Source: Micromonospora maritima
GTDB lineage: Bacteria; Actinomycetota; Actinomycetes; Mycobacteriales; Micromonosporaceae
Reading direction: 5' to 3'
Length of the DNA: 41,515 nucleotides
Assembly: GCF_902825405.1 (NCBI RefSeq)
Contig: NZ_CADEAU010000008.1
Coordinates: 1 to 41,515, forward strand
Made by a program: the position numbers and the translations under genes. A model generated the notes under the pieces. The model was given only the letters and a program-made list of their open reading frames with translations. It was not told where the DNA came from and searched no databases. This document shows, in pieces, positions 309-24,449 of the stretch (position 1 is its first letter; every line of letters begins with the position of its first letter).

Positions 309-1421
309 TCAGTTGAGGGTGCAGACCGCGAGGCTGTCGAGTTCGGGGCGCTGCGCGCCGACGCGGTTGAAGGCGATCTCGATCCGGTCGAGCGCCGCCC
401 CTCGCTTGCTCTTCAGCGGGTTGAGGATGGCGTTGGCGATGAAGTTCGGCCCGCCTTCCGGCTTGACGGCGATCCGGGCAAGCCGGGAGTTGGCCTCGTC
501 GATCTGCTTGTCGAGGGTGGCCAGCTCGGACTGGACCTGCCCGGCGGCCGCGGCCGGCACCGCCGGCAACTCGACGCGGGGGCAGTTCACCGTACGGGCC
601 TGCGCGGCCCCGCCGTTCTCCGACCCGGCCGCCTCGCCCTGGCCGGCGTTGCCGTTGACGGCGCTCGGCGTGCCGGGGGAGTTGAGCGTGCAGGTGGCGA
701 GGTCGACCAGGTTGCCCGGACGGTTGCCGTTGACCCGGCCGATGTCCGTGGCGATGCGGTTCAGGACGGCCACCCGCTTGTTGCGCAGCGGGCCCAGGAT
801 GGCGTTCTGGATGAAGTTCGGGCCGCCCTCGGGCTTGACGGCGAGCTTCGCCAGGCGCTCGTTCTGCCGGGCGATCTCCTCGTCCAGGTTCGCCAACTCC
901 TTCTCCACCCCGGCGACCGCCTCGGCCGGCACCTCGGGGAGCTTGTCGCGTACGGTCGGGCAGTCGACCGTCTGCGCGTTGGCCGGCGGGGCGGCCACCC
1001 CGCCGTCCCCGGCGCCGCCGGCCGCACCTTCGAGCGTGCAGTTCGCCAGGCCCTGCAGCCCGGCCGGCGCGGCGCCGCCGACGCGGGTGATGTCCTGGCT
1101 GATCCGGTCCAGCACCGCGCGGCGCTTGCCGGCGATGTCGTTGAGCTGGTTCTGTGCCGCCTTGGGCTCGCGGGCCAGCCGCTCGTTGACGTTCGCGATC
1201 TGCTTCTGCAGATTCTGCAGCTCGCGGTTCACCCCGTCCTGCGCGGCGGCCGGCACCGCGCCGAGCTTGTCGGCGACCGACGGGCAGACCACCGACACCG
1301 GCGTCGCGTTGGCGTTCTCGTCGGCGGACGCCAGTTGCAGTCCCGCGCCGATCAGCAACGCGGCGAAGGCTCCCACACCGCCGAGCTTCAGAACGGCGTT
1401 GTTGCGCGTACCCCTGGTCAT
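309..1421 (-). CDS. Secreted protein of three tandem cysteine-bracketed helical repeats, function unknown
   Basis: This 370-residue protein has an N-terminal signal peptide (charged start, hydrophobic residues about 13-30, likely cleavage after LASA). Three homologous units follow at about residues 46-130, 154-246 and 280-369. Each opens with a Cys-Pro (C46, C154, C280), then LPxVPA, a charged helix with ELxxLxxQI and NxRLA, and a second helix with KRxAxLxRI. Each closes with CTL (C128, C244, C367). Units 2 and 3 share the insert KPEGGPNFI.NAIL.PL, which unit 1 lacks. The six cysteines, two per unit, suggest one disulfide per unit closing a helical hairpin. Linkers of about 24 and 34 residues are Gly/Ala/Asn-rich. 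The ATG follows the ribosome site AAAGGAGAGG. I do not recognise a named family; a wall-associated or surface role is only a guess from export. Confidence 0.85.
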   Translation of the reverse strand: MTRGTRNNAVLKLGGVGAFAALLIGAGLQLASADENANATPVSVVCPSVADKLGAVPAAAQDGVNRELQNLQKQIANVNERLAREPKAAQNQLNDIAGKRRAVLDRISQDITRVGGAAPAGLQGLANCTLEGAAGGAGDGGVAAPPANAQTVDCPTVRDKLPEVPAEAVAGVEKELANLDEEIARQNERLAKLAVKPEGGPNFIQNAILGPLRNKRVAVLNRIATDIGRVNGNRPGNLVDLATCTLNSPGTPSAVNGNAGQGEAAGSENGGAAQARTVNCPRVELPAVPAAAAGQVQSELATLDKQIDEANSRLARIAVKPEGGPNFIANAILNPLKSKRGAALDRIEIAFNRVGAQRPELDSLAVCTLN

Positions 1422-1629
1422 GCACCTCTCCTTTGGTCGACCGCACCGGGCCGACGTGACGGGATGTCGCGGCGACCCGGTGCGGTGCGAAGTGAGGACT
1501 CAGGAATCGTGCTCGTGCCCGCTCCGGCATCGCGGTTCCGGACGATGTCCTCTGTCGATGAGGAGTACGGGGTGTTCAGCAGTATCGTTCAGTTTTTGTC
1601 ACAGAATTTCAGGAAACACGAAGACCGGG

Positions 1630-7940: not shown

Positions 7941-9209
7941 TCAGCCGAGGTGCTGGACGCGGAACAGCCGGGCGCCGTGCGCCTCGACGCGCATGCCGGT
8001 GGTGCCGCAGGCCTTGCCCTGCTCGGACCGGCTCCACAGGTCGCGCAGCGTCACCTCACCGTCGATGCCCACCGCCCGCAGGTCCAGCTGTACGTCCCGG
8101 TCGTCCTTGCCGACGTTGAACACCGCCAGCGCGGTGCTCGACTCGTCGAGCCGGGAGGTCCAGACGATGACGTCGTGCTCGCGGTACACCTCCCGGGCCC
8201 CGTCGCCGTCGCGCAGGACGGCCAGCACCTCGGGGTTGGTCAGCAGGTCCCGGGTGGCGTCGTCGAGCCGGGTCAGGTCGGTGCCGAGCATCAACGGCGA
8301 GCGGGCCACGCACCACAGGGTCATCAGGGTCGTCTGCTCCGGCCTGGTGAACCGGGTGTACCGGTCGCGCACCCCGGTCTCGCCGGAGCGCAGGGCGATC
8401 CGGCCCAGCGGCAGCATGTCGGCGTCCGGCCAGTGTCCCGGCCCGGCGTACGGGGCCCAGGCGGCGCAGATGTCGAACGCCGCACGCAGGTCGCTCCACC
8501 GGTCCCAGAAGTCGGCCGTGGTACGCCACATGTGCGCCCGGGAACTCAGGTGACCGGCCTCCGCCACCGGGGTCGGGCCGCAGGAGAGGCTCAGCACCAT
8601 CTCCCGGCCGCAGGCGTCCAGCGCGTTGCGCATCAGGTTGATCTCGCCCCGGTGGTACGGCAGCAGCATGTCGTCGGCCTTGACGAAGTCCACCCCCCAC
8701 GAGGCGTAGAGCGCGAACAGGGAGTCGTAGTACTCCTGGGCCCCGGGGCGGGTGGCGTCCACGCCGTACATGTCGGTGTTCCACGGGCAGATGGAGTTGG
8801 TCTGCGCGATGTCCCGGGCCGTCACGTCGCTGCCCAGGATCGGGGTGGCCGCGTGCACGGCCTGGCGGGGCACGCCGCGCATGATGTGGATGCCGAACTT
8901 CAGGCCCATCGCGTGGATCCGTTCGGCCAGCGGCGCGAAGCCCCGGCCGCCGGCCGCCGACGGGAACCGGTTCGCCGCCGGCACCAGCCGTGAGTGCCCG
9001 TCCACGGTCAGCGGTACGAACGGCCGGTAGGCGGAGCTGTGCGCGTCCGGCTCGTACCACTGGATGTCGACGACCAGGGTGTCCCAGCCGAAGGGGAGCA
9101 GCTCCCCGGCCAGCACCTCGGCGTTGGCGAGGATCTCCGCCTCGGTCACACTGGCGCCGTAGGTGTCCCAGCTGTTCCAGCCCATCGGGGGAATGGCGGC
9201 CACGGTCAT
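7941..9209 (-). CDS. GH27 glycosidase (alpha-galactosidase or beta-L-arabinopyranosidase)
   Basis: This 422-residue protein has the GH27 (beta/alpha)8 barrel starting directly at PPMGWNSWDTYG and no signal peptide, so it is probably cytoplasmic. The catalytic nucleophile is the Asp in DFVKADDM (family form LKYDNC) and the acid/base lies in GHWPDADMLPLG. The SPLMLGTDLTRL motif and a C-terminal beta domain follow. The region after strand 2 is VVDIQWYEPDAH rather than the usual DDGW, marking a bacterial subgroup. GH27 contains alpha-galactosidases and beta-L-arabinopyranosidases, which act on sterically similar sugars. Lying 160 nt downstream of araA, release of L-arabinose is plausible but unproven. 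The ATG at 9209 follows AGGAC and starts just before the conserved barrel; the frame is open further upstream but low in meaning there. Confidence 0.88.
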   Translation of the reverse strand: MTVAAIPPMGWNSWDTYGASVTEAEILANAEVLAGELLPFGWDTLVVDIQWYEPDAHSSAYRPFVPLTVDGHSRLVPAANRFPSAAGGRGFAPLAERIHAMGLKFGIHIMRGVPRQAVHAATPILGSDVTARDIAQTNSICPWNTDMYGVDATRPGAQEYYDSLFALYASWGVDFVKADDMLLPYHRGEINLMRNALDACGREMVLSLSCGPTPVAEAGHLSSRAHMWRTTADFWDRWSDLRAAFDICAAWAPYAGPGHWPDADMLPLGRIALRSGETGVRDRYTRFTRPEQTTLMTLWCVARSPLMLGTDLTRLDDATRDLLTNPEVLAVLRDGDGAREVYREHDVIVWTSRLDESSTALAVFNVGKDDRDVQLDLRAVGIDGEVTLRDLWSRSEQGKACGTTGMRVEAHGARLFRVQHLG

Positions 9210-9369
9210 GTTCTTGTCCTGCGCTTCCTGGTCGTCGGTCACGAGCGGTCGTTCGAGGTGGCGCCGGCCGGCACCGGTCGGACCCGGTCCGGGCGGGCCG
9301 GCGCCGAGGACGGCCCAGGAACCGCGGCGGTGGCGTGTGCCAGTCGTGCGGTCCGAGGGTGCGGTGGTG

Positions 9370-10866
9370 TCACAGCCCGCGGGCGAGCCGGTGGTAGGCG
9401 CTGGTCCAGCGCAGCTCGTGGGCGAAGCGCCGGGACGTGGTCTCCGCCTCGATGAGTGCGAGTTCGACACCGAGGATCTCGGCGAAGTCGTACAGGTGCT
9501 CCCTGGTCAGCGCGGTGGAGAGCACGGTGTGGTGCGGGCCGCCGGCGGTCAGCCAGGAGTCGGCGGACGTGGCGAAGTCGGGGTGCGGGCGCCAGACGGC
9601 CCTGGCGACGGGCAGCCGGGGCATCTCGGCCAGCGGCTCGACCACCGTCACCTCGTTGGCCACCAGGCGGAACCGGTCGCCCAGGTCGCACATGCCGACC
9701 ACCAGGCCCTCGCCCGGGTCGGCGTCGAACACCATCCGGACCGGGTCCTCCCGGCCGCCGATCGACAGCGGATGGATCTCCACGCGCGGCGTGCGGGCGG
9801 TGATCGTGGGGCAGACCTCCAGCATGTGCGCGCCGAGCACCAGTTCCCGGTCGGGCTCCAGGTGGTAGGTGTAGTCCTCCATGAACGAGGTGCCGCCCGG
9901 CAGCCCCGCCGCCGTGACCTTGAGCGCGCGCAGCAGCACCGAGGTCTTCCAGTCGCCTTCGCCGCCGAACCCGTAGCCGTCGGCCATCAACCGCTGCACG
10001 GCCAGGCCGGGCAGTTGGCGCAGGCCGCCGAGGTCCTCGAAGTTGGTGGTGAACGCGGTGAAGCCGCCGTCGTCGAGGAAGTGCCGCAGCGCCAGTTCGA
10101 TCCGGGCGGCGTAGCGCAGCGACTCGTGGCGCCCGCCACCGGCGCGCAGCTCCGGCGCGACCGCGTAGCGCTGCTCGTACTCGCCGACCAGTTCCTTCAC
10201 CGGGCCGTCGTCGACGGCGTCGACCACGGCGACGAGGTCGTTGACCCCGTAGGTGTTGACCGAGACGCCGAAGCGCAGCTCGGCCTCGACCTTGTCCCCC
10301 TCGGTCACCGCGACGTCGCGCATGTTGTCGCCGAAGCGGGCCAGTCGCATGGTGCGCAGCGCCTGCACCCCCACGGCCACCCGGGACCAGTCGCTGATCC
10401 GGGCCAGTACGGTCGGGTTGGACAGGTGGCCGGAGACCGTCTTGCGGGTCCTGCCGAGCCGGGTCTGCACGTAGCCGAACTCGCGGTCGCCATGCGCTGC
10501 CTGGTTCAGGTTCATGAAGTCCATGTCGATGGAGCTCCACGGCAGGTCCCGGTTGACCTGTGTGTGCAGGTGCAGCAGGGGCTTGCGCAGCGCGTCGAGG
10601 CCGGTGATCCACATCTTGGCGGGGGAGAAGGTGTGCATCCAGGCGACGACTCCGACCACCCGGTCGTCGGCGTTCGCCGCGCACATCACCTGACGGATGG
10701 CGGTGGCATCGGTGAGCACCGGCTTGGCCACCACCTCTGCCACGATCCCGGGATGCCGGGCCAGCGCCACGCAGATCTCGCCGGACTGGCGGGCGACCTG
10801 GTCGAGCACCTCCGGCCCGTACAGCCCCTGGCTGCCGGTGAGGAACCAGATCTGCTGCTGCCTCAT
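9370..10866 (-). CDS. araA: L-arabinose isomerase
   Basis: The 498-residue enzyme converts L-arabinose to L-ribulose and matches the usual AraA length of about 500. The start [17 protein letters not shown] is the family N-terminus. The metal/catalytic residues are visible in [31 protein letters not shown] and GGPHHTVLS (two Glu and two His in the E. coli enzyme). [17 protein letters not shown] and [13 protein letters not shown] are further signatures. The ATG overlaps the araD stop in an ATGA, and a GGGAG ribosome site lies 11 nt upstream. It is third in the araB-araD-araA operon. Confidence 0.97.
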
Positions 10867-11561
10867 GAAGTCGGTTCTCCCTGCTGTCCGTAGACGTTCT
10901 GGTAACGGTGGAAGAGGCTGTCGATGTGCTCCTGCTCCAGGCGCGGTGGCCGGCCGAGCTGGTGGGCGACGTGCACCGTGCGAGCGACGTCCTCGAGCAT
11001 CACCGCGGCCTTGACCGCGTCCCGCGCGTCGCTGCCGATGGTGAACGGACCGTGGCCGCCCATGAGCACCGCCCGGCTGCGCGACCCGCGCAGCGTCTCG
11101 ACGATGCCGCGGCCGATGGAGTCGTCCCCGATCAGCGCGAACGGGCCGACCGGGATGTCCCCGCCGAACTCGTCGGCGACCATCGTGAGCACGCACGGGA
11201 TCGGCTCCCGTCGGGCCGACCAGGCGGTGGCGTACGTGGAGTGCGAGTGCACGATCCCGCCGACCTCCGGCAGGTGCCGGTAGACGTAGGCGTGCGCCGC
11301 GGTGTCCGAGGACGGGGCGCGGTCGCCGTCGACCAGCCGACCGTGCAGGTCGGTGACGACCATCGCCGCGGGGGTGAGCTCGTGATACGGCAGCCCGGAG
11401 GGCTTGATGACCATCAGCTCCTCGCCGGGCACCCGGGCCGACACGTTGCCAGCGGTCCAGACGACCAGTTCGTAGCGGGTCAGCTCGGCGTGCAGCGCGC
11501 AGACGGTGTCGCGTAGCTGCGCCACGGCGGACCGTACGGCGGAGGCGGTGTCGATCGTCAT
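10863..11561 (-). CDS. araD: L-ribulose-5-phosphate 4-epimerase
   Basis: The 232-residue class II aldolase-fold enzyme turns L-ribulose 5-phosphate into D-xylulose 5-phosphate, the last step before the pentose phosphate pathway. Visible signatures are the phosphate loops GNVSAR and KPSGLPY, and the zinc ligands of [10 protein letters not shown] (two His) and [10 protein letters not shown] (third His). The DDSIGRG segment is typical of AraD-type rather than fuculose aldolases. Its ATG overlaps the araB stop as ATGA and its stop overlaps the araA start, so all three are translationally coupled. Confidence 0.96.
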
Positions 11562-13225
11562 GCGGTGGTCTCCCGTCGAATCGCCTTGAGGCGCCGCATG
11601 GCGTCGGTGCCGCCGCGGCCGAACTGGTCGTGCAGTTCCCGGTAGATGTCGTAGAGCCGCTGGTAGGCCATGACGTTGGCCGTGATCGGCCGGTACGACT
11701 CGACCACCCGGCCACCCATTGCCGCGGCGGCGGTGGGCACGTCCGGGTAGGCGCCGGCCGCCACGGCCGCGTGGATCGCGGAGCCGAGGGCGGGACCCTG
11801 CTCCGAGACGACGGTGGACAGCGGCAGGTTCAGCACGTCGCTGTAGATCTGCATGAGGAACCGGTTCTTCGGCAGCCCACCGGCGACGATGAACTCCCGC
11901 ACCGGCACCCCGGCGCGGGCGAAGGTCTCCACGATCACGCGGGTGCCGAAGGCGGTCGACTCCAGCAGGGCGCGGTAGATCTCCTCGGGCCGGGTGGTGA
12001 GGTCCAGGCCGATCAGGAGACCGGACAGCTCGTGGTCGACGAGTACCGAACGGTTGCCGCTCCACCAGTCGAGGGCGACCAGTCCGTGCGCGCCCACGGG
12101 GTCCCGGGCCGCGAGGTTGGTCAGGTATTCGTGCACGGAGACGCCCTGGGTGCGGGCGTCCGCGACGTACGCCGGGGGGACCTGGTTCGCGACGAACCAG
12201 CCGAACATGTCGCCGACCCCGGACTGGCCGGCTTCGTAGCCGGGAAGCCCGGCGACGATGCCGCCGTCCACGACACCGCACATCCCCGGCACCTCCACGA
12301 GCCGGTCGCCGCTCATCACATGGCAGGTCGAGGTGCCCATGATCGCCACCAACTGACCGGGCTCGACCGCCTGCGCGGCGGCGGCGGTGACGTGTGCGTC
12401 CACGTTGCCGACGGCCACCACCGTTGCCTCGGGCAGCCCGGTCCAGCGGGCGGCCCGGGCGGTGAGCCGGCCGGCGGCGGCGCCCAGTTCACCGATGCGC
12501 TGGTCGAGCTTGTCCCGGACGAAGTCGCGGAAGTCGGGGTTGAGCGCGGCGAGGAACTCCTCGTCCGGGTATCGGCCGTCCTGGAGGATGCCCTTGTAGC
12601 CGGCGGTGCAGGCGTTGCGGATGTAGGTGCCGGTGAGCTGCCAGACGATCCAGTCCGCCGCCTCCACCCACCGGTCCATGGCGGCGTACGCCTCGGGTGC
12701 CTCCTCCAGCAGTTGCAGACCCTTGGCGAACTCCCATTCCGAGGAGATCAACCCGCCGTAGCGGCCGAGCCAGGGCTCGTTCCGTTCGGCGGCCAGAGCG
12801 TTGATCCGGTCGGCGTGGCGCTGGGCGGCGTGGTGTTTCCAGAGCTTCACGTAGGCGTGCGGCTCATGGGCGAAGCGGGGCAGCTCGCAGAGCGGCGTGC
12901 CGTCGGCCAGCGTGGGCACCATGGTGCAGGCGGTGAAGTCGGTGCCGATGCCGATGACGTCGGCCGGGTCGATCTTCGCGGCCCGTACCGCCCGGGGCAC
13001 GGCGGTGCGCAGCACCGTGAGGTAGTCGGCGGGGACCTGGAGGGCCCAGTCGCGGGGCAGCCGTCGCCCGGTGCCGGGCAGCAGGGTGTCGATGACGCCG
13101 TGCGGGTACTCGCAGACCGCGGACGCGAGTTCCGCGCCGTCACTCACCCGGACGACCAGCGCTCGGCCGGAAAGTGTGCCGAAGTCGACCCCCACGACGT
13201 AGCGCGGTCCTGGCTGCGTGCTCAT
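11558..13225 (-). CDS. araB: L-ribulokinase, FGGY family
   Basis: This protein of about 555 residues phosphorylates L-ribulose. The ATPase-fold start is [51 protein letters not shown] and the C-terminal [20 protein letters not shown] loop are typical of bacterial AraB. The start at 13225 (MSTQPGPRY) is preferred because GGGAG lies just upstream. The frame is open from an ATG at 13282, but that codon overlaps the promoter -10 and the operator. It is the first gene of araBDA, divergent from the LacI regulator at 13462. Confidence 0.96.
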
Positions 13226-13282
13226 GTCCCCGACTCCCATGATCCCGACGGTGCCGGCGGGCACCTCGCTGCTGGCGGCCAT

Positions 13283-13296
13283 TGTTAACGGTCACA
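13283..13296. promoter_or_regulatory. LacI-family operator O3 over the araB promoter
   Basis: TGTTAACGGTCACA reads TGTGACCGTTAACA on the araB strand and fits TGTKANCGNTMACA fully. It overlaps the inferred -10 of araBDA, so binding would repress the operon. Confidence 0.7.
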
Positions 13297-13394
13297 ACAG
13301 GCGCCGTCAACCCTTGATCAAGGGCAAATCACGGCTGAGAGCGGCAATAACGTCCGCTCTATAAGCTCTCCTGAGAGTTGGTTGATGATCGCTT

Positions 13395-13408
13395 TGTGAC
13401 CGCTCTGT
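13395..13408. promoter_or_regulatory. LacI-family operator O4 upstream of the regulator
   Basis: TGTGACCGCTCTGT is identical to O1 over its first 11 bases, then diverges. It lies about 55 nt upstream of the regulator ATG and fits autoregulation. A further half-site, TGTTACCG, occurs at 13446-13453. Confidence 0.5.
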
Positions 13409-13461
13409 TAAACGTTTTCGAGAGTCGCGGTCGGGCGGCGCGGCCTGTTACCGTACGGGTC

Positions 13462-14496
13462 ATGACCTCACGCGCGCCCGCTCAAGGCGAGGACGCGGGC
13501 AGGGCCCGGACACCAGTCATGCGCGATGTCGCCCGGCTCGCCGGCGTCTCGCACCAGACCGTCTCCCGGGTCCTCAACGGGCTGCCCAACGTCAGCGACT
13601 CCGTGCGGGAGCGGGTGGAGCGGGCCGTCGCCCAGCTCGGATACCGCCCGAATGTCAGCGCCCGGGCCCTGATCACGAAGCGGACGATGACGCTGGGTGT
13701 GGTCAGCGTGTCCACGCAGCAGTACGGTCCGGCGGGCACGCTGACCGGCATCTCCGAGGCGGCGCGGCGGGCCGGGTACTTCGTCAGCGTCACCGTGCTC
13801 GACGCGGTCGATCGCCAGTCGATGCGGTCCGCGATCGACCACCTGCTGGCGGCTGCGGTGGACGGGGTGATCGTCATCGCGCCGGTCGGCTCCGTGGTCG
13901 AGGCGGTGGCCGGTGTCGCACGCACAGTGCCGCTCGTGATGGTCGAGGCACGCGACGGCGAGCAGTCCGTCGCCGGCATCGACCAGGTCGGCGGGGCCCG
14001 GACGGCCACCCGTCACCTGCTCGATCTCGGGCATCGGACGGTGGCTCACGTCCGGGGCCCGATCAACTGGTTCGAGGCGGACGCCCGGGTCAGCGGCTGG
14101 CTGACCGAGCTGATGGCCGCTCATGCTCCCGTGCCCGAAGTGCTGGTGGGCGACTGGTCCCCCCGCTCCGGCTACGAGGCGGGCCGGCGCATCCTCGAGC
14201 GGTCCGACGTCACCGCCGTCTTCGCCGCCAACGACCAGATGGCGCTGGGCCTGCTCCGCGCATTCGAAGAGGCCGGGCGCTCGGTACCAGGCGACATCAG
14301 CGTGGTGGGTTTCGACGACCTGCCCGAGTCGGAGTTCTTCCACCCGCCGTTGACCACCGTCCGGCAGGACTTCGCCGAGGTCGGTCGACGCTGCATCGCC
14401 GAGATCGTCGCTCGGATCGACGGCACGAGCCCGCCCTCGGCAGGTCTGATCGTGCCCGAGATGGTCGTGCGAGACAGCACCGCCGCGCCCCGCTGA
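13462..14496 (+). CDS. LacI-family transcriptional regulator of the arabinose locus
   Basis: This 344-residue repressor has an N-terminal helix-turn-helix, MRDVARLAGVSHQTVSRVLN, the hinge helix ARALIT, and a periplasmic-binding-like ligand domain (VDGVIVIAPVGS, TAVFAANDQMALGLLRA, ISVVGFDDLP). The chosen ATG at 13462 gives a 20-residue arm before the DNA-binding domain; there is no clear ribosome site, so an ATG at 13519 or an upstream GTG remains possible. It diverges from araBDA, and matching operator boxes occur at araB, upstream of itself and in the transporter/FGE region. L-arabinose or an arabinose-containing sugar is the likely inducer (inference). The DNA-reading helix is nearly identical to that of the regulator at 26959. 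Confidence 0.93.
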   Translation: MTSRAPAQGEDAGRARTPVMRDVARLAGVSHQTVSRVLNGLPNVSDSVRERVERAVAQLGYRPNVSARALITKRTMTLGVVSVSTQQYGPAGTLTGISEAARRAGYFVSVTVLDAVDRQSMRSAIDHLLAAAVDGVIVIAPVGSVVEAVAGVARTVPLVMVEARDGEQSVAGIDQVGGARTATRHLLDLGHRTVAHVRGPINWFEADARVSGWLTELMAAHAPVPEVLVGDWSPRSGYEAGRRILERSDVTAVFAANDQMALGLLRAFEEAGRSVPGDISVVGFDDLPESEFFHPPLTTVRQDFAEVGRRCIAEIVARIDGTSPPSAGLIVPEMVVRDSTAAPR

Positions 14497-14693
14497 GCGG
14501 GCGGGCGGGCGTACCCAGCGTCGGGCCGAGAGCGGCTGCGCGGGCCGTCGGCGCCACCGTGCCGACGCACGGTCGCTCCGGTTCTCCGGCAGGCCCCGGG
14601 GCCGCCCCCACCTCCCGCTGAAACTCCGGCTGCGCCGCCGGAGTGTTCCCGGTCGACGCCGCCGTCCCGGTGGTGACCGACCCGAGGAGCGCC

Positions 14694-15602
14694 ATGAAAC
14701 CCTCAACTCGCGCCTGGCCGAGCGGCATCATCGCCGTCCTGCTCGTCCTGCTGCCCGGTGATCCCCTTGGGATCACGTCCGACGCCCCCACCGCCGTCCC
14801 GCCGCCGGTTACCACCGCCTACCTCTCGTCGAGCAGCGGCGGTGTCACCGCAGCCTCCCAGCGCCCCGGCTTCGCGCGGCGCACCGTTCGGCGGCCACCC
14901 ACCAACGTCTCGATCGACTACCAGCTCGGCGGCGCCTACCCGCTACCGCTGCCGGCGCGGGTGGTCAGCCGCGACTGGGCGGACAGCCCGGCCCTCGGCG
15001 CCTACACCATCTGCCGCGTCAACGCCTTCCAGGCCCAGCCCCAGGAGATCGGCTGGTGGCGGGCCTACCACGACGACCTGCTGCTGCGCGACGCCATTGG
15101 ACGGTACGTGGTCGACGCGCCGCGGCAGGAGATCCTGCTCGACATCTCCACGCCGGACAAGCGGGCCCGTCTCGCCGCCATCGTCGGCGGTTGGCTCGAA
15201 CGATGCGCCGCCGACGGTTTCCCGGCCGTCGAGCCGGACAACCTCGACTCGTATCACCGGTCCCAGGGCCGACTCACCGAAGTGCAGGCGATCGAGTACG
15301 TCGGGATGCTCGCCGCCCGCGCCGACCGGGTCTCCCTGGCCGTGGCGCAGAAGAATGCCGTCGACCTCGGCCGGGCCGGACGCGACGTCGGTCTCGACTT
15401 CGCCATCGCCGAGGAGTGCGGCCGGTACGCCGACTGCGACGACTACACCTCCGTCTACGGCGACCATGTCATGGTCATCGAGTACACCGACGCCGGCTTC
15501 GCGCAGACGTGCCGCACGGTCGGGGCCCGACTGTCGGTGGTGCAGCGTGACCGGCGGCTCAGCCGCCCGAACAGCCCCGGCTACGTCTACCGCACGTGCT
15601 GA
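14694..15602 (+). CDS. Secreted GH114 protein, endo-alpha-1,4-polygalactosaminidase-like
   Basis: This 302-residue protein has a signal peptide (hydrophobic residues about 10-25). A TIM-barrel domain matches GH114/TM1410: IDYQLGGAYPL, VVSRDW, ICRVNAFQAQP, EILLDIST, the catalytic-region motif FPAVEPDNLDSYHRS, AVAQKN and DFAIAEECGRY. GH114 enzymes cut alpha-1,4-linked galactosamine polymers such as fungal galactosaminogalactan and bacterial polygalactosamine. The ATG has a good GAGGAG ribosome site. No operon partner is evident. Confidence 0.85.
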   Translation: MKPSTRAWPSGIIAVLLVLLPGDPLGITSDAPTAVPPPVTTAYLSSSSGGVTAASQRPGFARRTVRRPPTNVSIDYQLGGAYPLPLPARVVSRDWADSPALGAYTICRVNAFQAQPQEIGWWRAYHDDLLLRDAIGRYVVDAPRQEILLDISTPDKRARLAAIVGGWLERCAADGFPAVEPDNLDSYHRSQGRLTEVQAIEYVGMLAARADRVSLAVAQKNAVDLGRAGRDVGLDFAIAEECGRYADCDDYTSVYGDHVMVIEYTDAGFAQTCRTVGARLSVVQRDRRLSRPNSPGYVYRTC

Positions 15603-15751
15603 ACCCCGTCGTCGCCTGCGGAGTGTCCTGTCGCGAGCGCCCTCTTGGTCCAGACAGAAGGCATCTGTCAGGAGGCCGAACGGATGGCCGCGTGGACCGG
15701 GTGGACTTCGTCCTGGACGGGGCCGATCCAGTGCGCTGGACGGAACGCGGC

Positions 15752-15784
15752 CGAGCCGGACCCCGTCGGCCGGGCTCCGGCTCG
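15752..15784. terminator. Hairpin between the convergent GH114 and GerMN genes
   Basis: Arms CGAGCCGGA (15752-15760) and TCCGGCTCG (15776-15784) are perfect over 9 bp, with a 15-nt loop. It lies only 6 nt past the GerMN stop. Confidence 0.55.
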
Positions 15785-15789
15785 TGCCG

Positions 15790-16530
15790 TCATTTCGGCA
15801 CCTGGTCGTGCAGCACGTCCACATAGAAGGCCCGCTGGTCACCGCGGATGGAGAAGCGGGCCTCCCGGATCCAGCCGAACTGCTCCAGGGTCCGCCGCAT
15901 CGGCTCCAGCAGCTTGGTCTTCTCGCACCTGTCGTCGGGGGCCAGGATGCCGTCCAGGTCGGTGAAGTCGGCGCGGGCCATCGGCCCGTCCAGCTTGAGA
16001 TACCGGAACCGGTAGGCGTCGTCGCGAAAGACGCTTGTCAGCCCCGCCGACTGCTCCGCCGGTGTCGGCCCGTCCAGCAGCGCGGCCAGCGCCCGCTTGG
16101 CCACCCCCTCGGCGGGCAACTCGCGAGTCACCGGCACGATCTGCGGACAGGGTTGACCGGCGCGCTCACGCAGCAGGAACAGCTTGACCCTGCGGGTGCC
16201 GGTGGAGGGCTCCACGGTCGGCTGCAGCGGCTCCTGCCCGTCACTCGGCCGGGCCGTCGGCGCGACAGATGTCGTGGTTGAAGGCCCCACCGCCGGGCCG
16301 GTGACCGCCTGTCCGCGTTGCCCCGCCGGGCTCAGGGCCCCGATCCCGATCGGCACGGCCAGCACGGCTGCGGTGACCATTCCGACGGCACCGGCGGTAC
16401 GAGCGCGGCGTCGGCGGGTCCGGCGGTGCAGATCCGCCAGGTCCGGTGGCCGGGCGGTGTCCGCGGCGGTGCCGGCCAGGCGGCGCAGGGCGTCCCGCGT
16501 CGCGCCGTCGTCGCGCCCACCGTCCGTCAC
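15790..16530 (-). CDS. Membrane-anchored GerMN-domain protein, possible anti-sigma partner
   Basis: This 246-residue protein has a cytoplasmic N-terminus (about 1-44, with an LRRLAGTAADTARPPDLADL helix), one membrane span at about 46-66 and a Pro/Thr linker. The extracytoplasmic GerMN domain runs from about residue 105 to the end (VKLFLLRERAGQPC, VTRELPA, ALAALLDGPTPAEQSAGLTS). GerMN domains occur in spore-germination proteins and in actinobacterial LpqB/GerMN lipoproteins; their ligand is unknown. The GTG start has a GGAGA site. The layout resembles transmembrane anti-sigma factors, and the divergent neighbour is an ECF sigma gene 151 nt away, so a signalling pair is plausible. There is no ZAS zinc motif. 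Confidence 0.75.
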   Translation of the reverse strand: MTDGGRDDGATRDALRRLAGTAADTARPPDLADLHRRTRRRRARTAGAVGMVTAAVLAVPIGIGALSPAGQRGQAVTGPAVGPSTTTSVAPTARPSDGQEPLQPTVEPSTGTRRVKLFLLRERAGQPCPQIVPVTRELPAEGVAKRALAALLDGPTPAEQSAGLTSVFRDDAYRFRYLKLDGPMARADFTDLDGILAPDDRCEKTKLLEPMRRTLEQFGWIREARFSIRGDQRAFYVDVLHDQVPK

Positions 16531-16569
16531 CGCTGTCTCCTCGAAGCGTCGTCGAGGCCACTGTAACGT

Positions 16570-16598
16570 TTGACGCTGAACCGGCCGTCACATAGCGT
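16570..16598 (+). promoter_or_regulatory. Promoter of the ECF sigma gene
   Basis: TTGACG (16570-16575), exactly 17 nt, then TAGCGT (16593-16598): a good housekeeping-type promoter. The inferred transcript starts near 16605, about 77 nt before the ATG. Confidence 0.65.
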
Positions 16599-16681
16599 GC
16601 GGTAGCGGATGGCGGGTGAGTGGGCCTCGTTGCTGTCGGACGGCCGCCACAGTCACGGGCGATCCCTGGCTGAGAGGTTCG

Positions 16682-17191
16682 ATGTCGACGGACCGGGAGT
16701 TCACCGAATTTTACCTCGCCACCTATCGTCGACTGGTTGGTCAGCTGTACGCGTTGACCGGGAACCGCCACGATGCCGAGGAGCTGGCGCAGGAGGCGTT
16801 CTCCCGCGCGCTCGTCCGATGGGCGAAGATCAGAGAGTACGACCTGCCCGAGGCGTGGGTACGCAGAGTGGCCTTCAACCTCGCGTTCTCCCGACGCCGG
16901 CAGGCACTTCGCGCGACGGCCGCCATGCTGCGCCTCGGCGCCGGTCGTCGCGGGCAGCCCGACGACGGTGACCACACCGCCGTCGTGGACGCGCTGCGGA
17001 AGGTGCCCGTACGCCACCGACAGGCACTGGTCCTGCACTACCTCGTCGACCTCCCCGTTCGGGACGTGGCCGAGGAACTCGGCGTACCGGAGAACACCGT
17101 CAAGACGTGGCTGCGGCGAGGACGCCAGCAGCTACAGGACGTGCTGCGTGACGAACTGACCGTCGCGGCACTGGCCCGCCTCGAGTTCTGA
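16682..17191 (+). CDS. ECF RNA polymerase sigma factor, SigE-like family
   Basis: The 169-residue protein has sigma region 2 (FTEFYLATYRRLVGQLYALT, DAEELAQEAFSRALVRW) and sigma region 4 (LRKVPVRHRQALVLHYLVDL, then VAEELGVPENTVKTWLRRGR, the -35 recognition helix-turn-helix). The length and lack of C-terminal extension match the short actinobacterial SigE-like group. The ATG at 16682 is used because GAGAGG precedes it. It diverges from the GerMN membrane protein, a possible cognate anti-sigma. Confidence 0.93.
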   Translation: MSTDREFTEFYLATYRRLVGQLYALTGNRHDAEELAQEAFSRALVRWAKIREYDLPEAWVRRVAFNLAFSRRRQALRATAAMLRLGAGRRGQPDDGDHTAVVDALRKVPVRHRQALVLHYLVDLPVRDVAEELGVPENTVKTWLRRGRQQLQDVLRDELTVAALARLEF

Positions 17192-17258
17192 GCCCGGCCG
17201 CCGTTCGACATGAAACCCGCGCCGTCCCCGCGGGGTGTTCCTGCGCAGATCCCACCGC

Positions 17259-17277
17259 CGGCGCTCGCGAAGCGCCG
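17259..17277 (+). terminator. Weak hairpin after the sigma gene
   Basis: CGGCGCT / AGCGCCG form a 7-bp stem with a 5-nt loop, 68 nt past the sigma stop and 27 nt before the next start. Confidence 0.35.
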
Positions 17278-17303
17278 CCGGTCGACACGGAGGAGGCCCG
17301 AGG

Positions 17304-18581
17304 ATGAGCAGTCGTGGTGCGAGAGTTGGTCTGCTGAGTACCGCCGGTGTGCTGGTGCTCGCCGCCGCGGCGGCGTGGGGGACCGCGCCGAGTGCCTCCG
17401 CGGCGGCGGCACCGACCATCACCGCCGTCACCGGCGCGACGGACGGCGGCACGGTACGAGGCGTCACGGTGGTCCAGGCGAAGGTCCGGGGAGCAACCGA
17501 CGCCGTCACCTTCACCCTGTCCGGCCCGTCGAGCGACGTCTGGACCGAACGGGCCGCACCGTACTTCTTCCACGGCGACCACAACGGAGCCGCCACGGGC
17601 TGGGACACCAACCGGATCGCCGACGGGCGCTACACCCTGACGGTGCGGGCCGCCAAGGGCTCCGCCGCCACGACCCGGACGGTAACCTTCACCGTCGACA
17701 ACGGATCCGCCACCCCGACGCCCGACCCGACCGACGCCGCCGGCCGGCCCTCGGTGTGGGTGCTCAGCGACATGAGCATCCCCGGTGGCGGCACCGACCG
17801 CGACGACATCGTGACCCTCGCGACGCTGAGCGCGTATGCCGACAAGTTCGCCGTCGAGAGGGTCGTCGTCGGCGCGACCACCGTCGGCATCAACTGCGCC
17901 AAGGCTCTCGACTACGCGAGAACGTCCTTCGGCGCGCACCTGCCAGGCATCACCTTGGCCTCCACCTGCGCCGACGGCGACGGCTTCACCACCTGCACCG
18001 CCGCGAACCCGTGGCTGCGGCAGCCACCGGCGACCGTCGAGGCGCTCGTCGCCTCGATCCGGGCCGGCGGGCTCACGGTGCTCAACTGGGGGCCGATGTC
18101 GGAGATCGCAGGTGCGGTGTGTTGGCTGGAGCACCACGCGCCGGCCGACCTGGCCAAGGTCCGGATCATCAGCCACTGGACGGACCCCAGCCCCGGCTAC
18201 CCGAGCCGCGGACAGGCGTACAACTGCGCGAAGGACCAATCCGCCTGCGACTACCTGCACCAGGCTGCCCGACGCGCCGCCAACCGGATCTCGCTGGTGG
18301 AACTCGGCGGCTCGGGCCAGCGATTCGTCGACGAGGCCAACGACCGGTGCGCCGCGGACACCAGCGTCCCGAACAACGGGCTGGGTGCCCTGCTCAACGT
18401 CACCAAGGACACCGGCACCCCGGACATGTCCGACGGGGCGACGTTCCTGCTGCTGGTGACCGGCGGCCTGGAGAGCTACGTCGACGACGGGACCGACGAC
18501 GCGAACTTCACCAAGGGCTTCCAGCAGCTCTGTGTGGCGGCGCCGGCCATCTTCGACCATCTGCGCACCCATCTGAACTGA
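17304..18581 (+). CDS. Secreted nucleoside-hydrolase-like protein with N-terminal Ig-like domain
   Basis: This 425-residue protein has a signal peptide ending ASAAAA (about 1-37). A beta-rich domain follows at about 38-140 (TVRGVTVVQAKVRGATDAVTF, DGRYTLTVRA, TRTVTFTVDN). A TPTPDP linker leads to a domain from about 150 with VWVLSDMSIPGGGTDRDDIV, an Asp cluster like the DxDxGxDD metal/ribose site of nucleoside hydrolases. Similar secreted IUNH-like domains (DUF1593) occur near plant-wall degradation genes; the true substrate may be a glycoside rather than a nucleoside. The ATG at 17304 has GGAGGAGGCCCGAGG upstream. Confidence 0.65.
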   Translation: MSSRGARVGLLSTAGVLVLAAAAAWGTAPSASAAAAPTITAVTGATDGGTVRGVTVVQAKVRGATDAVTFTLSGPSSDVWTERAAPYFFHGDHNGAATGWDTNRIADGRYTLTVRAAKGSAATTRTVTFTVDNGSATPTPDPTDAAGRPSVWVLSDMSIPGGGTDRDDIVTLATLSAYADKFAVERVVVGATTVGINCAKALDYARTSFGAHLPGITLASTCADGDGFTTCTAANPWLRQPPATVEALVASIRAGGLTVLNWGPMSEIAGAVCWLEHHAPADLAKVRIISHWTDPSPGYPSRGQAYNCAKDQSACDYLHQAARRAANRISLVELGGSGQRFVDEANDRCAADTSVPNNGLGALLNVTKDTGTPDMSDGATFLLLVTGGLESYVDDGTDDANFTKGFQQLCVAAPAIFDHLRTHLN

Positions 18582-18683
18582 GCCGTTCGGCGGGCGGGCC
18601 GGCGCTCCCGGCCGGTCCCCCCGTCGTGCGGGCTCGCGCGACACGCCGAGCCTCGGTCGACCCGGGCGGGGCGTGGCACAGGA

Positions 18684-20192
18684 TCAGGCGGCGGGTGTGG
18701 CACGGGACACGGCGTCGCCGACGCGGTCGACGGCGTCGGTGAGCGCCGGGGCCGCCGCCGCTGACACCCCGCCGTCGCGGATCTCGTCGGCGAGGCTCCG
18801 GCGCAGGTCAGACATCAGCTGGGCCAGGTTGTCCGCCCGGGCGTTCTGGTTGTTCACCACGTTCACCACCTGAGCGTCGATCTTCTGCGCCGCGCCGGAG
18901 GTCACGGTGCCCTCGGCGAGATCCCGGCGGAGCAACTCACGAAGCTCGGCCGCCGCGACGGCGAGAGACACGGTCGGACTGGCGGACGGTCCCGTCGTGG
19001 CGGAGGCGGGCCCACCGGTCGAGGGCGCGGATGAGCGGATCGCGCTCGGCACACGGGTCGGCTTGTTGCTCCGTGATGGTCCGGGCGTCGTGACCGGCCG
19101 CGTCGACCGGACCAGGGGCGGCCAGGAGAGCTCAGGCGCGGGCAGTTGGGCCTCGGGCGGCGGCGTCGGCGAGCGAGTGAGCGCGACGATGGTCACGGCG
19201 GCGGCCAGAGCGCCCGCGACCACCGTGGCCACCCCGGCGATCACCGGTCCTCGCCCACGCCGGTCTGCCGCCGGTTCGAGCACCGCGGTCACCACCCGGC
19301 CGGCCGGCGCGGTCGCCGGTGCAGGCGTCCGGGGCGGCTGGTGTCCGGCGGACATCGGATCGGTGACCGCGTCCAGCTCGGCGGCGACCTCCGCTGCGGA
19401 CGGGCGCCGGCTCGGCTCCCGCCCCAGACACCTGTCGCACAGCCGCACCACCTCGGCGGGGACTGCGGCGGGCATGCGGATGGCATCGTCCGGTGGTCTG
19501 CCGGTGAGCATCTCGACCAGCAGCGCGCCGAGGGAATAGACGTCTGCCGCCGGATCGGCCGGAGCATCGGCGAGCCGTTCCGGCGCGAGGTACGGGGGAG
19601 TGCCGAAGGTCCAGCTCCGCTGCGGGCGGTCCCCGATCCTCGCGGCGATTCCGAAGTCGAGCAGCTTGACCTCGCCGTCGGCCACCATCACGTTGTCCGG
19701 GGTGACGTCCCGATGGACGACGCCGTGTGCGTGGACGGCCGCCAGCACCGCGGCCAGCCGCGCGGCGATCCTGACGGCCTGGCGCCACCCGAGCGCCCCG
19801 GAGGCCAGGACGTCGAGCAGCGATTCCCCGGCCAGCATCTGCAGGACCAGGAAGGTGGCCGTGGTGCCGTCGGGTGCCACGACCTGTCCGACGTCGTGCA
19901 CGACCACCACGTCGGGATGCGAGACGGCCGCCATGGTGCGCGCCTCGGTGCGTGCCAGGGCGTCCCGGTCCACCGGCACGTCGCGGTCCGGGCCGGGAAG
20001 CTTGACCGCGACAAGACGGTCCAGCTCCACGTCCAAGGCCCGCCAGATGACGGACATGCCGCCCGCGCCGATGCGCTCCACCAGCCGGTAACGGCCGGCG
20101 AGCGTCACGCCCGGCGTGGGCCAGCGCTCGGGCGTCGGCCGCTCAGGCCGACCCACGACGGACGAGTTCAGTGGGAAGTACGACGGTGTCAC
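18684..20192 (-). CDS. Transmembrane serine/threonine protein kinase
   Basis: This protein of about 502 residues carries a Hanks-type kinase domain at about residues 30-285. It has the glycine loop RIGAGGMSVIWRA, the lysine in VAVKLPG, the catalytic loop HRDVTPDNVM, the DFG loop LLDFGIAARIG, and FGTPPYLAPERL. One membrane span at about 315-340 is followed by a Pro/Ser/Thr-rich linker. The small extracytoplasmic tail is predicted helical (AAAELRELLRRDLAEG, QVVNVVNNQNARADNLAQLM). There are no PASTA repeats. The start is GTG 20192, which overlaps the upstream LacI gene by 50 nt; GTG 20156 (14-nt overlap) is an alternative. Signal and targets are unknown. Confidence 0.9.
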   Translation of the reverse strand: MTPSYFPLNSSVVGRPERPTPERWPTPGVTLAGRYRLVERIGAGGMSVIWRALDVELDRLVAVKLPGPDRDVPVDRDALARTEARTMAAVSHPDVVVVHDVGQVVAPDGTTATFLVLQMLAGESLLDVLASGALGWRQAVRIAARLAAVLAAVHAHGVVHRDVTPDNVMVADGEVKLLDFGIAARIGDRPQRSWTFGTPPYLAPERLADAPADPAADVYSLGALLVEMLTGRPPDDAIRMPAAVPAEVVRLCDRCLGREPSRRPSAAEVAAELDAVTDPMSAGHQPPRTPAPATAPAGRVVTAVLEPAADRRGRGPVIAGVATVVAGALAAAVTIVALTRSPTPPPEAQLPAPELSWPPLVRSTRPVTTPGPSRSNKPTRVPSAIRSSAPSTGGPASATTGPSASPTVSLAVAAAELRELLRRDLAEGTVTSGAAQKIDAQVVNVVNNQNARADNLAQLMSDLRRSLADEIRDGGVSAAAAPALTDAVDRVGDAVSRATPAA

Positions 20193-21141
20193 TGGTGGGT
20201 CGGTCCTCGATGATGTCGGCCAGCAGCAGTCGGCAGGCGATCCTGCCCAACTGCTCGACCGGTTGACGGACGGTGGTCAGGGCCGGCTGGATCATGGTGG
20301 CGACGGGTGCGTCGTCGAACCCGACCAGGGCCACGTCGTCGGGTACGGCGCGGCCGGCACGGCGCAGGGCGTGAAGAGCACCGACCGCCATCGCGTCCGA
20401 GGCGACGAAGACCCCGTCGACCGTCGGTGCACGGCTGATCAGCCACTGCATGGCGTGCGTTCCGGAGGCCTGGGTGAAGTCCCCGTAGGCGGTGGCCGCC
20501 GGCTCGATCCCGGCCTCCGCCATCGCCTCGCGGTACCCGGCGAGGCGGTCGGCGGCGGCGGGCAGGTCCGGCGGCCCGGCGATCATGGCCACCCGGCGAC
20601 GTCCGCCGCGCAGCAGGTGCCGCACCGCCGCGCGGGCGCCCCCGCGGTTGTCCACGTCGACGAACGGAATGTCCAGCTCGGCCGGGCGGCCGACACCGCG
20701 TACCGGCACCGGGGACGTGGCGACCGCCCGGGCAACCGGATGCTGGTGGTATGCGCTGACCAGGAGGACACCGTCGGCGCCGCCGGTGAGCAGGTAGCGT
20801 TCGATCCCGGCCAGGTTGTCCCGTGCCGCCGTCAGGATCGGCATGGGAGAGCCGTGGATCGACAGTTCGGCCTCCGCGCCGGCGGCCAGCCGCGCGAAGA
20901 ACGGGTCGGCGAACACCCGTGCGGTCGGCTCGCAGATCACCAGGGCCACCACCGGAGGCTTCCGCAGACCCGGGTGCCGGGCGTCCCGCCGTATGTAGCC
21001 GAGCTGCGCCATCGCCGCGTACACGCGCTGCCGGACTCCCGTCGTCACGCGGACGGAGCCGGTGAGCACCCGCGACACCGTGGCCGGTGACACCTGGGCC
21101 GCGGCGGCGATCTGTTGGACGGTCGGCTGCGCGCGCATCAT
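20143..21141 (-). CDS. LacI-family transcriptional regulator
   Basis: This 332-residue repressor has the helix-turn-helix TVQQIAAAAQVSPATVSRVL, a short hinge region and the ligand-binding domain (GGADGVLLVSAYH, VDVDNRGGARAAVRHLL, VDGVFVASDAMAVGALHALR, VALVGFDDAP). The hinge is atypical: HPGLRKPPVVALV replaces the usual ARxL helix. GGAG precedes two consecutive ATGs (21141, 21138). It lies beside the CBM2 cellulose genes, and the perfect palindrome TGAAACGCGTTTCA at 21554 and 24225 is a candidate target. Its gene runs into the kinase gene. Confidence 0.92.
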   Translation of the reverse strand: MMRAQPTVQQIAAAAQVSPATVSRVLTGSVRVTTGVRQRVYAAMAQLGYIRRDARHPGLRKPPVVALVICEPTARVFADPFFARLAAGAEAELSIHGSPMPILTAARDNLAGIERYLLTGGADGVLLVSAYHQHPVARAVATSPVPVRGVGRPAELDIPFVDVDNRGGARAAVRHLLRGGRRRVAMIAGPPDLPAAADRLAGYREAMAEAGIEPAATAYGDFTQASGTHAMQWLISRAPTVDGVFVASDAMAVGALHALRRAGRAVPDDVALVGFDDAPVATMIQPALTTVRQPVEQLGRIACRLLLADIIEDRPTSDTVVLPTELVRRGSA

Positions 21142-21494
21142 GCTCCGGCTCGAGGTCGGGTACCGAGCGGTCGGCCGCCGTTCTGTGAACAGGAAGGCGC
21201 GTCCGCGGCGCGACGAGCCCGGCTGAGGTCGTTGGAAGCAGGTCTCGTCGCGGGTACCTGCTTCCGAGTGGCGGGGCGTGGCCCGACTGCGCCGGAATCA
21301 CCGAAGCGTGGCACGGCCGCGAAGGCCTGGCAAGGCCGGCGTGCCGTACGGGCCCGTACCCCGGCCGGCGGTGCCCCGCCGTTCCGGCCGGGGCCGCTGC
21401 CGGGAGGTGGCGTCCCGTCCACGGCATCCGCGCCGGTCACCGCCGTCCGGGCATCGACGGCGGTGGCCGGCGTCGGCGCGTCACGGACCGTCGC

Positions 21495-21519
21495 CGCCGC
21501 CTGCGAGCCGCAGGCGGCG
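21495..21519 (-). terminator. Hairpin downstream of the CBM2 concanavalin-like gene
   Basis: CGCCGCCTGC and GCAGGCGGCG form a perfect 10-bp stem with a 5-nt loop, about 130 nt beyond the stop of the leftward gene ending at 21652. Confidence 0.5.
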
Positions 21520-21553
21520 ACGTGCCGGGACCCGGCCGGGCCGGACGAGGCCG

Positions 21554-21567
21554 TGAAACGCGTTTCA
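21554..21567. promoter_or_regulatory. Perfect palindrome TGAAACGCGTTTCA, copy 1
   Basis: This 14-bp perfect palindrome with a central CG is typical of LacI-family operators. An identical copy is at 24225. It lies about 410 nt upstream of the leftward LacI gene. Confidence 0.6.
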
Positions 21568-21651
21568 GGCAGCGGGCGTCGCCGGTCCCGGGACGTCTCC
21601 CGCCGGCGGCGCGGGCCGGTCGTGGGGGACGACCCCCGGGGCAGCCGCCGG

Positions 21652-22842: not shown

Positions 22843-22863
22843 CGGTGCTCCTGCGGTGGTGGG

Positions 22864-22896
22864 GGTGCGGTCCACGTCGGGGACGTGGACCGCACC
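22864..22896 (-). terminator. Strong hairpin between AA10 and CBM2 genes
   Basis: GGTGCGGTCCACGTC and its exact complement (22864-22878, 22882-22896) form a 15-bp stem with a 3-nt loop. It ends the AA10 gene (stop at 22922) and sits about 10 nt before the ribosome site of the next gene, so it could also attenuate read-through. Confidence 0.8.
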
Positions 22897-22921
22897 GGTG
22901 GTGGGGCGGGTACGGCTGGGC

Positions 22922-23974: not shown

Positions 23975-24224
23975 GTTTCCTCCTCGCGGCCCCGCTTCCG
24001 GGACCGCCTTCGCCGACCGAGGCCGGCCGGTGTTTCCGCAGACGAGTGAGTCCGGTGGCGGCGCGGTGGCCCAGGCCGCGGTCGCCCATTCCGGCGAGCG
24101 GCGGGGTGCCCGGCCACCCGGCTCGCTCCGATCGCAGCCGCCGCTCGGTGCCAGAAGCCAACATCCCGCACGTCTCGGGTACCAGCCCGTGGCCAGCTAT
24201 TCGGCGACGACCTGCGGCTTTGTG

Positions 24225-24238
24225 TGAAACGCGTTTCA
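24225..24238. promoter_or_regulatory. Perfect palindrome TGAAACGCGTTTCA, copy 2
   Basis: Identical to 21554-21567. It lies about 250 nt upstream of the AA10 start and 212 nt upstream of the GH5 start. Confidence 0.6.
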
Positions 24239-24395
24239 GCGATCGGGCCGGTGACCACCGGGTCGGTCCGAGGCCATGCGGCAGACGTCGTCGCAGGTGA
24301 CCGGGGTTTCGGGCGGATCCGGCGCAGGGGTTCGGTGCGGGGGTCGCGTCATCCGGCTGGACGGCAGTGGTTCTCGGGCTGCTTATGCTCGCCGA

Positions 24396-24409
24396 TGGAA
24401 GCGCTCCCA
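24396..24409. promoter_or_regulatory. CelR/CebR-type cellulose operator (TGGAAGCGCTCCCA)
   Basis: It differs by one base from TGGGAGCGCTCCCA, the operator bound by CelR of Thermobifida and CebR of Streptomyces, which release DNA on binding cellobiose. It lies at the probable transcription start, 40 nt before the GH5 ATG. Confidence 0.8.
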
Positions 24410-24449
24410 TTCGCATCATCACCACACCACCACCGTCGAAGGACAGAAC

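Follow-up and report, generated by a model that had tools for sequence, protein, structure and literature searches.

CBM6 and F5/8 type C domains, both of which are beta-sandwich folds, are found together with DUF1996 (PF09362) in secreted proteins, and these proteins are among the closest described counterparts of the locus analysed here. According to the part of the literature available, fungal DUF1996 is often accompanied by CBM1, CBM6 or WSC domains (PMC7679414), and Beauveria mutants in DUF1996 show sensitivity both to wall stress and to metal ions, as the available portion of a second report states (PMC4738358). Two regulatory systems are also relevant. The published CebR box is TGGGAGCGCTCCCA, as given in the accessible sections of two papers (PMC4898821, PMC5332605), and a Streptomyces coelicolor sigma-E target, situated before sco6178, is listed with TGAAC-N17-CGTA in the available part of its source (PMC6767563). 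We describe a secreted protein of Micromonospora maritima that consists of three copies of a ~90-residue unit. This unit is a recurrent partner of DUF1996, being placed N-terminal to it or inserted in it twice, but it is a separate module, and the window protein itself has no DUF1996, as the PF09362 model found no match in it. Unlike CBM6 and F5/8 type C, the unit is predicted to be all-helical and disulfide-closed, and no CBM model is present among the 24 Pfam matches listed up to E 10 for the window protein.

The window, by which we mean the whole stretch of 41,515 nucleotides that was analysed, has the three-unit gene as its first complete gene, an open reading frame on the minus strand (309..1421) encoding 370 amino acids plus stop from an ATG start. 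A ribosome-binding site, AAAGGAGAGG, is located 5′ of the ATG (1425..1434, minus strand) on the basis of the sequence and an alignment of relatives. Because a GGAGA ribosome-binding site is common to 24 aligned Micromonospora upstream regions (the window's included, a few of them being one gene twice), the ATG start of the window gene is supported. An earlier note on this DNA, made from the letters alone, had called the product secreted, and a signal peptide is indeed found at approximately residues 1–34 (1320..1421, minus strand), with a cleavage site judged by eye and an LKLGGVG core that is common to the aligned relatives. The best relatives, at 45–83% identity, keep the reading frame of the window gene open, and the long frames on the opposite strand of 309..1421 are of the shadow type that high-GC DNA usually produces.

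The protein comprises three related units bounded by cysteines, all encoded on the minus strand: unit 1 (1029..1292, residues 44–131) with Cys46 and Cys128 and a shortened loop, unit 2 (681..968, residues 152–247) with Cys154 and Cys244, and unit 3 (312..590, residues 278–370) with Cys280 and Cys367, which forms the C-terminal end of the protein. These six are the cysteines of the window protein, one pair per unit at exactly the positions previously given, and all three units start with Cys-Pro and end with Cys-Thr-Leu, as had been noticed. A unit length of 84–92 residues had been quoted, and this is close to the measured Cys-to-Cys spans of 83, 91 and 88 residues (units 1, 2 and 3) without matching them exactly. 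Linker 1 (969..1028, minus strand) and linker 2 (591..680, minus strand) consist of G, N, A, S, P or Q in 84% of 19 residues and 79% of 29 residues, respectively, when bounded by the profile. Local alignment of unit against unit yielded identities of 47/87, 44/84 and 55/93 and scores of 183, 139 and 250, compared with shuffle means of ~29 (sd 5–6, maximum 60, 3 × 1000 shuffles); the repeat z-scores of 20–42 bear out the description of the protein as triplicated. VKPEGGPNFI is common to units 2 and 3. The earlier note was right that KPEGGPNFI is shared by two units but not that it is an insert, as it is the family's normal loop (consensus GGPNF..NAILGPL), most of which is missing in unit 1.

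The proposed architecture of a disulfide-closed helical hairpin is backed by structure prediction. AlphaFold2 modelled unit 2, with a 39-unit alignment (A1), as a two-helix hairpin at a mean pLDDT of 93.2 and a pTM of 0.82, with helices at 15–44 and 50–80 and a short helix at 87–91. The lone bridge of this model pairs residue 2 with residue 94, the immediate neighbours of Cys3 and Cys93, so that the unit 2 cysteines should be adjacent rather than far apart. In a separate AlphaFold2 run, two units within the DUF1996 protein of a relative (L123) were predicted in the same hairpin form, with means over ten residues of 62–92 and strands again flanking the cysteines in both; the model of this protein has a mean pLDDT of 50.9 and is confident in the units only. 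With unit 2 and the two L123 units modelled, prediction supports the view that each unit is a two-helix antiparallel hairpin closed by a disulfide between adjacent terminal cysteines. Foldseek with the hairpin returned no match at E ≤ 0.001 (best E 1.6), an absence that is not equivalent to a new fold, and VIA-align reached a best Z of 6.8, inside the tool's range for unrelated helical models; the weak structural matches were mostly RNA polymerase hairpins and designed oligomers.

The cysteines and a set of basic residues are nearly invariant among 103 units (unit numbering): Cys93 and Arg65 are kept in 103/103, Cys3, Arg71 and Arg78 in 102/103, Arg38 in 101/103, and Lys64 in 99/103, with Arg in the remaining 4. 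Phe is conserved at position 52 in 95 of the 103 units. Trp and Tyr, the usual residues of CBM sites, show no conservation across the 103 units. We read Arg65 as occupying a core-like heptad position, and the conserved basic residues of the unit may be structural only.

No family had been recognised for this architecture, which holds for Pfam, NCBIfam and the PDB as searched. The window protein has no convincing relative in Pfam, its single match above the cut-off being Val_tRNA-synt_C (PF10458), a helical arm, at 26.1 bits against a cut-off of 25.9, with a best stretch of 20/66 profile positions (9–28). A tRNA-synthetase arm was rejected, since the match is short and marginal with partial coverage of the profile, no synthetase domain is listed, and the window protein is secreted; we read the match as a coiled-coil-like chance match. 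A phage scaffold and the other Pfam and NCBIfam matches were likewise rejected as short and weak. Nothing convincing was found in the NCBIfam search of the window protein or in a PDB profile search (best E 0.096), and no description of the unit was recognised in the open-access text searched. Relatives of the unit proved to be widespread. The hairpin unit, which has no model in Pfam or NCBIfam, is an uncharacterised module and not a new kind of system.

With the full window protein as query, 98/200 sampled genomes of the family were matched, together with 8/296 phylum genomes from two genera. In a presence/absence survey of Micromonosporaceae with the 39-unit profile A1, the unit was detected in 99/200 sampled genomes (12/44 genera); it is present in 34/38 sampled genomes of Micromonospora, the window's genus, and in 32/394 class genomes from 2/137 genera. 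A 16-unit alignment (A2) scanned against named genomes confirmed at least 551 relatives, and the best 80 loci kept of these at least 551 include Micromonospora, Actinoplanes, Phytohabitans, Virgisporangium, Streptomyces, Kutzneria, Lentzea, Saccharothrix, Kibdelosporangium, Nonomuraea, Actinomadura, Rhodococcus rhodnii and others. From the class and phylum samples and the named-genome scan, it follows that the unit is patchy beyond two main genera. Phages gave no unit match, and among plasmids 4 Streptomyces records were matched, two of which are annotated as DUF1996 proteins. The genome of the window (G000) contains further unit genes, one for a two-unit protein on contig C210 and one for a single unit with another C-terminal domain on contig C199.

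From 165 loci, a set chosen for search rank that does not amount to a census, 146 distinct unit-bearing frames were obtained: 85 are stand-alone, 36 have their units on the N-terminal side of DUF1996, 22 carry two units as an insertion within DUF1996, and 3 combine one unit with a C-terminal domain. The stand-alone frames comprise 6 with one unit (some of them possibly fragments), 50 with two and 29 with three. Where units are inserted, the pair occupies a single gap in the DUF1996 match, one unit after the other, and this gap follows the motif SSYFWPVVRI. The unit tree indicates repeated late duplication within genes, for example of units 2 and 3 of L008. A second partner domain of ~180 C-terminal amino acids was observed in L003 (the gene on C199, with the motif HFHTACRMLGSTR), L053 and L070, and also in 3 genomes of another family among the 296 phylum genomes; Pfam has no family for the C-terminal domains of L003 and L053, the two of the three one-unit fusions that were scanned. 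At L121 (7174–8906, Kibdelosporangium aridum), there are two overlapping frames with a unit in each and DUF1996 in the second only, and this gene looks frame-shifted or mis-sequenced.

DUF1996 itself is frequent in the family, with PF09362 matches in 135/200 genomes. Among 40 DUF1996 proteins from this bacterial family that lack the unit, picked from the best-scoring of the matches listed with four duplicates dropped, CBM6 is present in 15/40 and F5/8C in 7/40, whereas a Pfam CBM match is found in 0/36 unit-bearing DUF1996 proteins (36 of 58 distinct frames). With relatedness ignored, the Fisher p is 1.6e-5 for 15/40 versus 0/36, and 1.6e-8 if all 22 are distinct proteins. In the first unit-less member, CBM6 lies at 99–225 and DUF1996 at 306–515, the one member in which the N-terminal position of CBM6 was seen, and in Streptomyces-type fusions the unit precedes DUF1996 in like manner. 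The DUF1996 bit score is 182 in this member versus 87–112 in six unit-bearing ones, and the unit-less and unit-bearing sets look like different subfamilies. Because of this, and because the sets were picked from search lists, the exchange with CBMs is a positional argument and does not represent independent events. Searched against the PDB, the 40 unit-less proteins gave matches within the CBM6 part only. All 40 unit-less and 21 inserted-type DUF1996 sequences (alignments A3 and A4) share five invariant motif histidines (HxH, HxxH and a late H) and several invariant cysteines, which suggests a metal-dependent enzyme.

Upstream of the window gene, a promoter-like element of presumed type, TGAAC-N17-CGTA, is located ~145 nt from the ATG (1566..1591, minus strand). 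It has 1 match in the window against 0.09 expected, and 9/100 shuffles had one. With a spacer of 16–18 nt, the element is found upstream of 64/83 unit genes without DUF1996 (which take in three genes with another C-terminal domain) and 26/34 N-terminal DUF1996 fusions, versus 0/22 inserted-type DUF1996 genes and a background of 140/8000 one-strand random windows; many of the 82–83 genes are close relatives, and the counts do not stand for independent events. Upstream regions that were identical or shorter than 250 nt had been dropped, and starts were chosen by a simple RBS score. Genome-wide, TGAAC-N17-CGTA occurs at 17, 21 and 48 sites in the window's genome, in G189 (the genome of the closest relative) and in G381, compared with 2, 4 and 6 for the reversed control, and all 9 known unit genes of these three genomes are preceded by it. 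About half of the 17 sites in the window's genome were inspected, and some of these lie within genes. The gene that follows one site (L261 on contig C592, 373–1542) is, by eye, presumably an ECF sigma factor, and that following another (L262 on contig C44, 570–1568) is by its look what we take to be an HrdD-type sigma factor; their products are candidate regulators of the unit genes. In Actinoplanes-type unit genes, the −35 is often TGATC or CGATC. An inverted repeat with 21-nt arms that are 86% complementary and a 5-nt loop is located at 1440–1486, between the promoter-like element and the ribosome-binding site, i.e., in the presumed 5′ leader. Judging from its placement, its genome-wide counts and the listed sigma-E target (PMC6767563), the element looks like an ECF-sigma promoter. 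The −35 and the spacing are similar to those of the sigma-E envelope-stress regulon of S. coelicolor, but in the portion of the source available its −10 elements are mostly CGTC, whereas the unit genes have CGTA (PMC6767563).

A second regulatory element connects relatives of the window gene with cellulase genes. The sequence GGGAGCGCTCCC, with at most 1 mismatch, is present within 300 nt upstream of 30 of the 82–83 unit genes without DUF1996, versus 50/4000 random 300-nt windows, and the box is found upstream of none of the DUF1996 unit genes (inserted type 0/22, N-terminal type 0/34). Across five genomes of the bacterial family, 12 sites carry the exact CebR 14-mer; 9 are at GH5, GH6, GH9 or GH12 genes and 3 (L223, L226 and L233) are not. 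An Actinoplanes-type variant, TGGRAGCGYTYCCGTA, has 7 sites in six genomes of 7.6–9.9 Mb, all directly upstream of stand-alone unit genes, with some shared with a divergent neighbour; one of the sites (L241, at the second unit gene of G137) was absent from the sequences behind the pattern, and G191, a seventh genome searched, has 0. YGGGAGCGCTCCCR occurs at 31 sites across five genomes from the window's genus. Unit genes carry it in G191, G168 and G177 and are without it in G000 and G189, and among the 28 other sites the genes at 10 were scanned, 8 being GH1, GH5, GH9 or GH12, one a solute-binding protein and one an alpha/beta hydrolase. GGGAGCGCTCCC and TGAAC..CGTA were first noticed in Micromonospora and TGGRAGCGYTYCCGTA in Actinoplanes-type genes, some of which were later counted; the independent part is that the patterns also occur in the remaining genera and that hardly any additional sites exist in those genomes.

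The box and the promoter-like element can be combined. The GH12-CBM2 gene of the window's genome has TGAAC-N17-CGTA with a CebR-like box in the spacer, the unit gene of L014 has the same arrangement upstream, and in Actinoplanes-type unit genes the CebR-like box fills the promoter spacer up to the −10. At Streptomyces loci (L138, L151, L135 and others), a GGGAAACCGCTTACCC-like block, perhaps another LacI-type operator, occupies the spacer where Actinoplanes has the CebR-like box. The 14-bp operator of the CebR regulon or a close variant is thus placed before unit genes (30/83) as well as cellulase genes of the same genomes, but the window gene has no such box, its best match in the 300 nt upstream having 4 mismatches in 12, and neither have the other two unit genes of its genome or the closest relative in G189. 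No unit gene was recognised among the CebR targets in the accessible sections of the published work (PMC4898821, PMC5332605). The CebR link, read from operator sequences, is one for the relatives and not for the window gene.

Upstream of the window gene is a gene that matches the GH49 N-terminal domain marginally (21.4 versus 21.3 bits), and this GH49-like gene is followed by genes for a sugar-type ABC permease and a binding protein. Inspection by eye of 7944–26429 revealed what we take to be a GH27-like gene, arabinose isomerase/epimerase/kinase-like genes and LacI-type regulators, together with a presumed AA10-like LPMO at 22925–23944 and a presumed GH5-like gene at 24456–26429. The window contig looks like a plant-polysaccharide region. 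Elsewhere, the unit gene on C210 is a neighbour of a gene for a CBM2 protein with a pectate-lyase-like helix, and the closest relative (in G189) is flanked by GH43 on one side and DUF1501 on the other. In a comparison, for polysaccharide enzymes, of genes near the unit genes with genes far from them, the near set comprised 35 genes (32 left of 87 after relatives were removed, plus 3 added by hand, two of which were already known as sugar-enzyme-like) and the far set 64, of 118 left of 286; among the matches listed, CBM2 appears twice in both sets, LPMO, GH19 and pectate lyase in the near set, and GH62 and GH127 in the far set.

The explanation that we tentatively prefer is that the window protein is a non-catalytic, multivalent, secreted polymer binder using a new all-helical CBM-like module. 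Each ~90-residue unit would be a two-helix antiparallel hairpin with its ends locked by one disulfide, as predicted, and three such hairpins, whose order and flexible Gly/Asn/Ala linkers are seen in the sequence, would make a beads-on-a-string protein. Each hairpin would bind a polysaccharide outside the cell, probably one from plant cell walls or cellulosic material; the near-invariant Arg38, Lys64, Arg65, Arg71 and Arg78 would be candidate contacts or structural residues, and repetition of the unit would raise avidity. Transcription of the gene would start at an ECF-sigma-type promoter, and the adjoining genes resemble polysaccharide-use genes. We infer polysaccharide binding from the hairpin's occupation of the CBM position in DUF1996 proteins and from the CebR-like operator at stand-alone genes; a carbon-use reading is weakened by the ECF-type promoter, which is equally suggestive of envelope stress. 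A wider proposal, of which we are more doubtful, is that the ~90-residue single-disulfide helical hairpin represents a new glycan-binding class with which filamentous actinobacteria replace CBMs on DUF1996, and that strings of 2–3 such hairpins are a secreted cellulose-response component with an ECF-sigma promoter and, in some lineages, a CebR-type operator in the spacer.

The promoter raises an alternative that is unlikely in our judgement but carries weight, namely that the product is an envelope protein of the producer itself, whose hairpins bind the hyphal wall (peptidoglycan, teichoic or other anionic polymers) and whose gene is part of an envelope-stress regulon under an ECF sigma factor. 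Anionic polymers would be suitable ligands for the five near-invariant basic residues, and a sortase-like motif is found near the end of 2/146 frames, some frames being cut by the locus end. Genes for a D-Ala-D-Ala carboxypeptidase and an M15 peptidase lie near the unit gene in one Micromonospora clade, but this peptidase neighbourhood was observed solely at Micromonospora loci. The promoter-like element also precedes the presumed ECF sigma and HrdD-type genes of the window's genome, and its occurrence before 64/83 and 26/34 unit genes, together with its resemblance to the sigma-E target in the available part of the source (PMC6767563), would fit such a regulon. Binding to the producer's own wall, however, leaves unexplained both the CebR-like boxes and the exchange with CBM6 and F5/8C, which the polysaccharide-binding reading draws upon.

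Two-helix antiparallel hairpins are common assembly elements, and the units might accordingly dimerise or dock partners such as DUF1996 proteins, with the stand-alone protein serving as a scaffold or adaptor. We regard this as improbable: the weak structural matches to RNA polymerase hairpins and designed oligomers, the presence of stand-alone and DUF1996-fused units within one genome (for example in G003 and in G381) and the promoter element common to stand-alone and N-terminally fused genes are in keeping with it, but no neighbour was seen to be fixed across genera, and the CBM exchange points to ligand binding instead. That the gene is no functional unit, its repeat being accidental or its reading frame mistaken, as long shadow ORFs on both strands of high-GC DNA might make one suspect, was rejected as next to impossible in view of repeat z-scores of 20–42, relatives in 99/200 family genomes, near-complete conservation of the two cysteines (102/103 and 103/103 units), and a shared ribosome-binding site and promoter element.

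The hairpin module is widespread in Micromonospora and extends to loci of Streptomyces, Actinoplanes, Nonomuraea, Lentzea and further genera, yet it is without a Pfam or NCBIfam model. It provides a handle on DUF1996, a domain common to fungi and actinobacteria. If the unit is polysaccharide-binding, it would constitute an all-helical, disulfide-locked alternative to the beta-sandwich CBMs.
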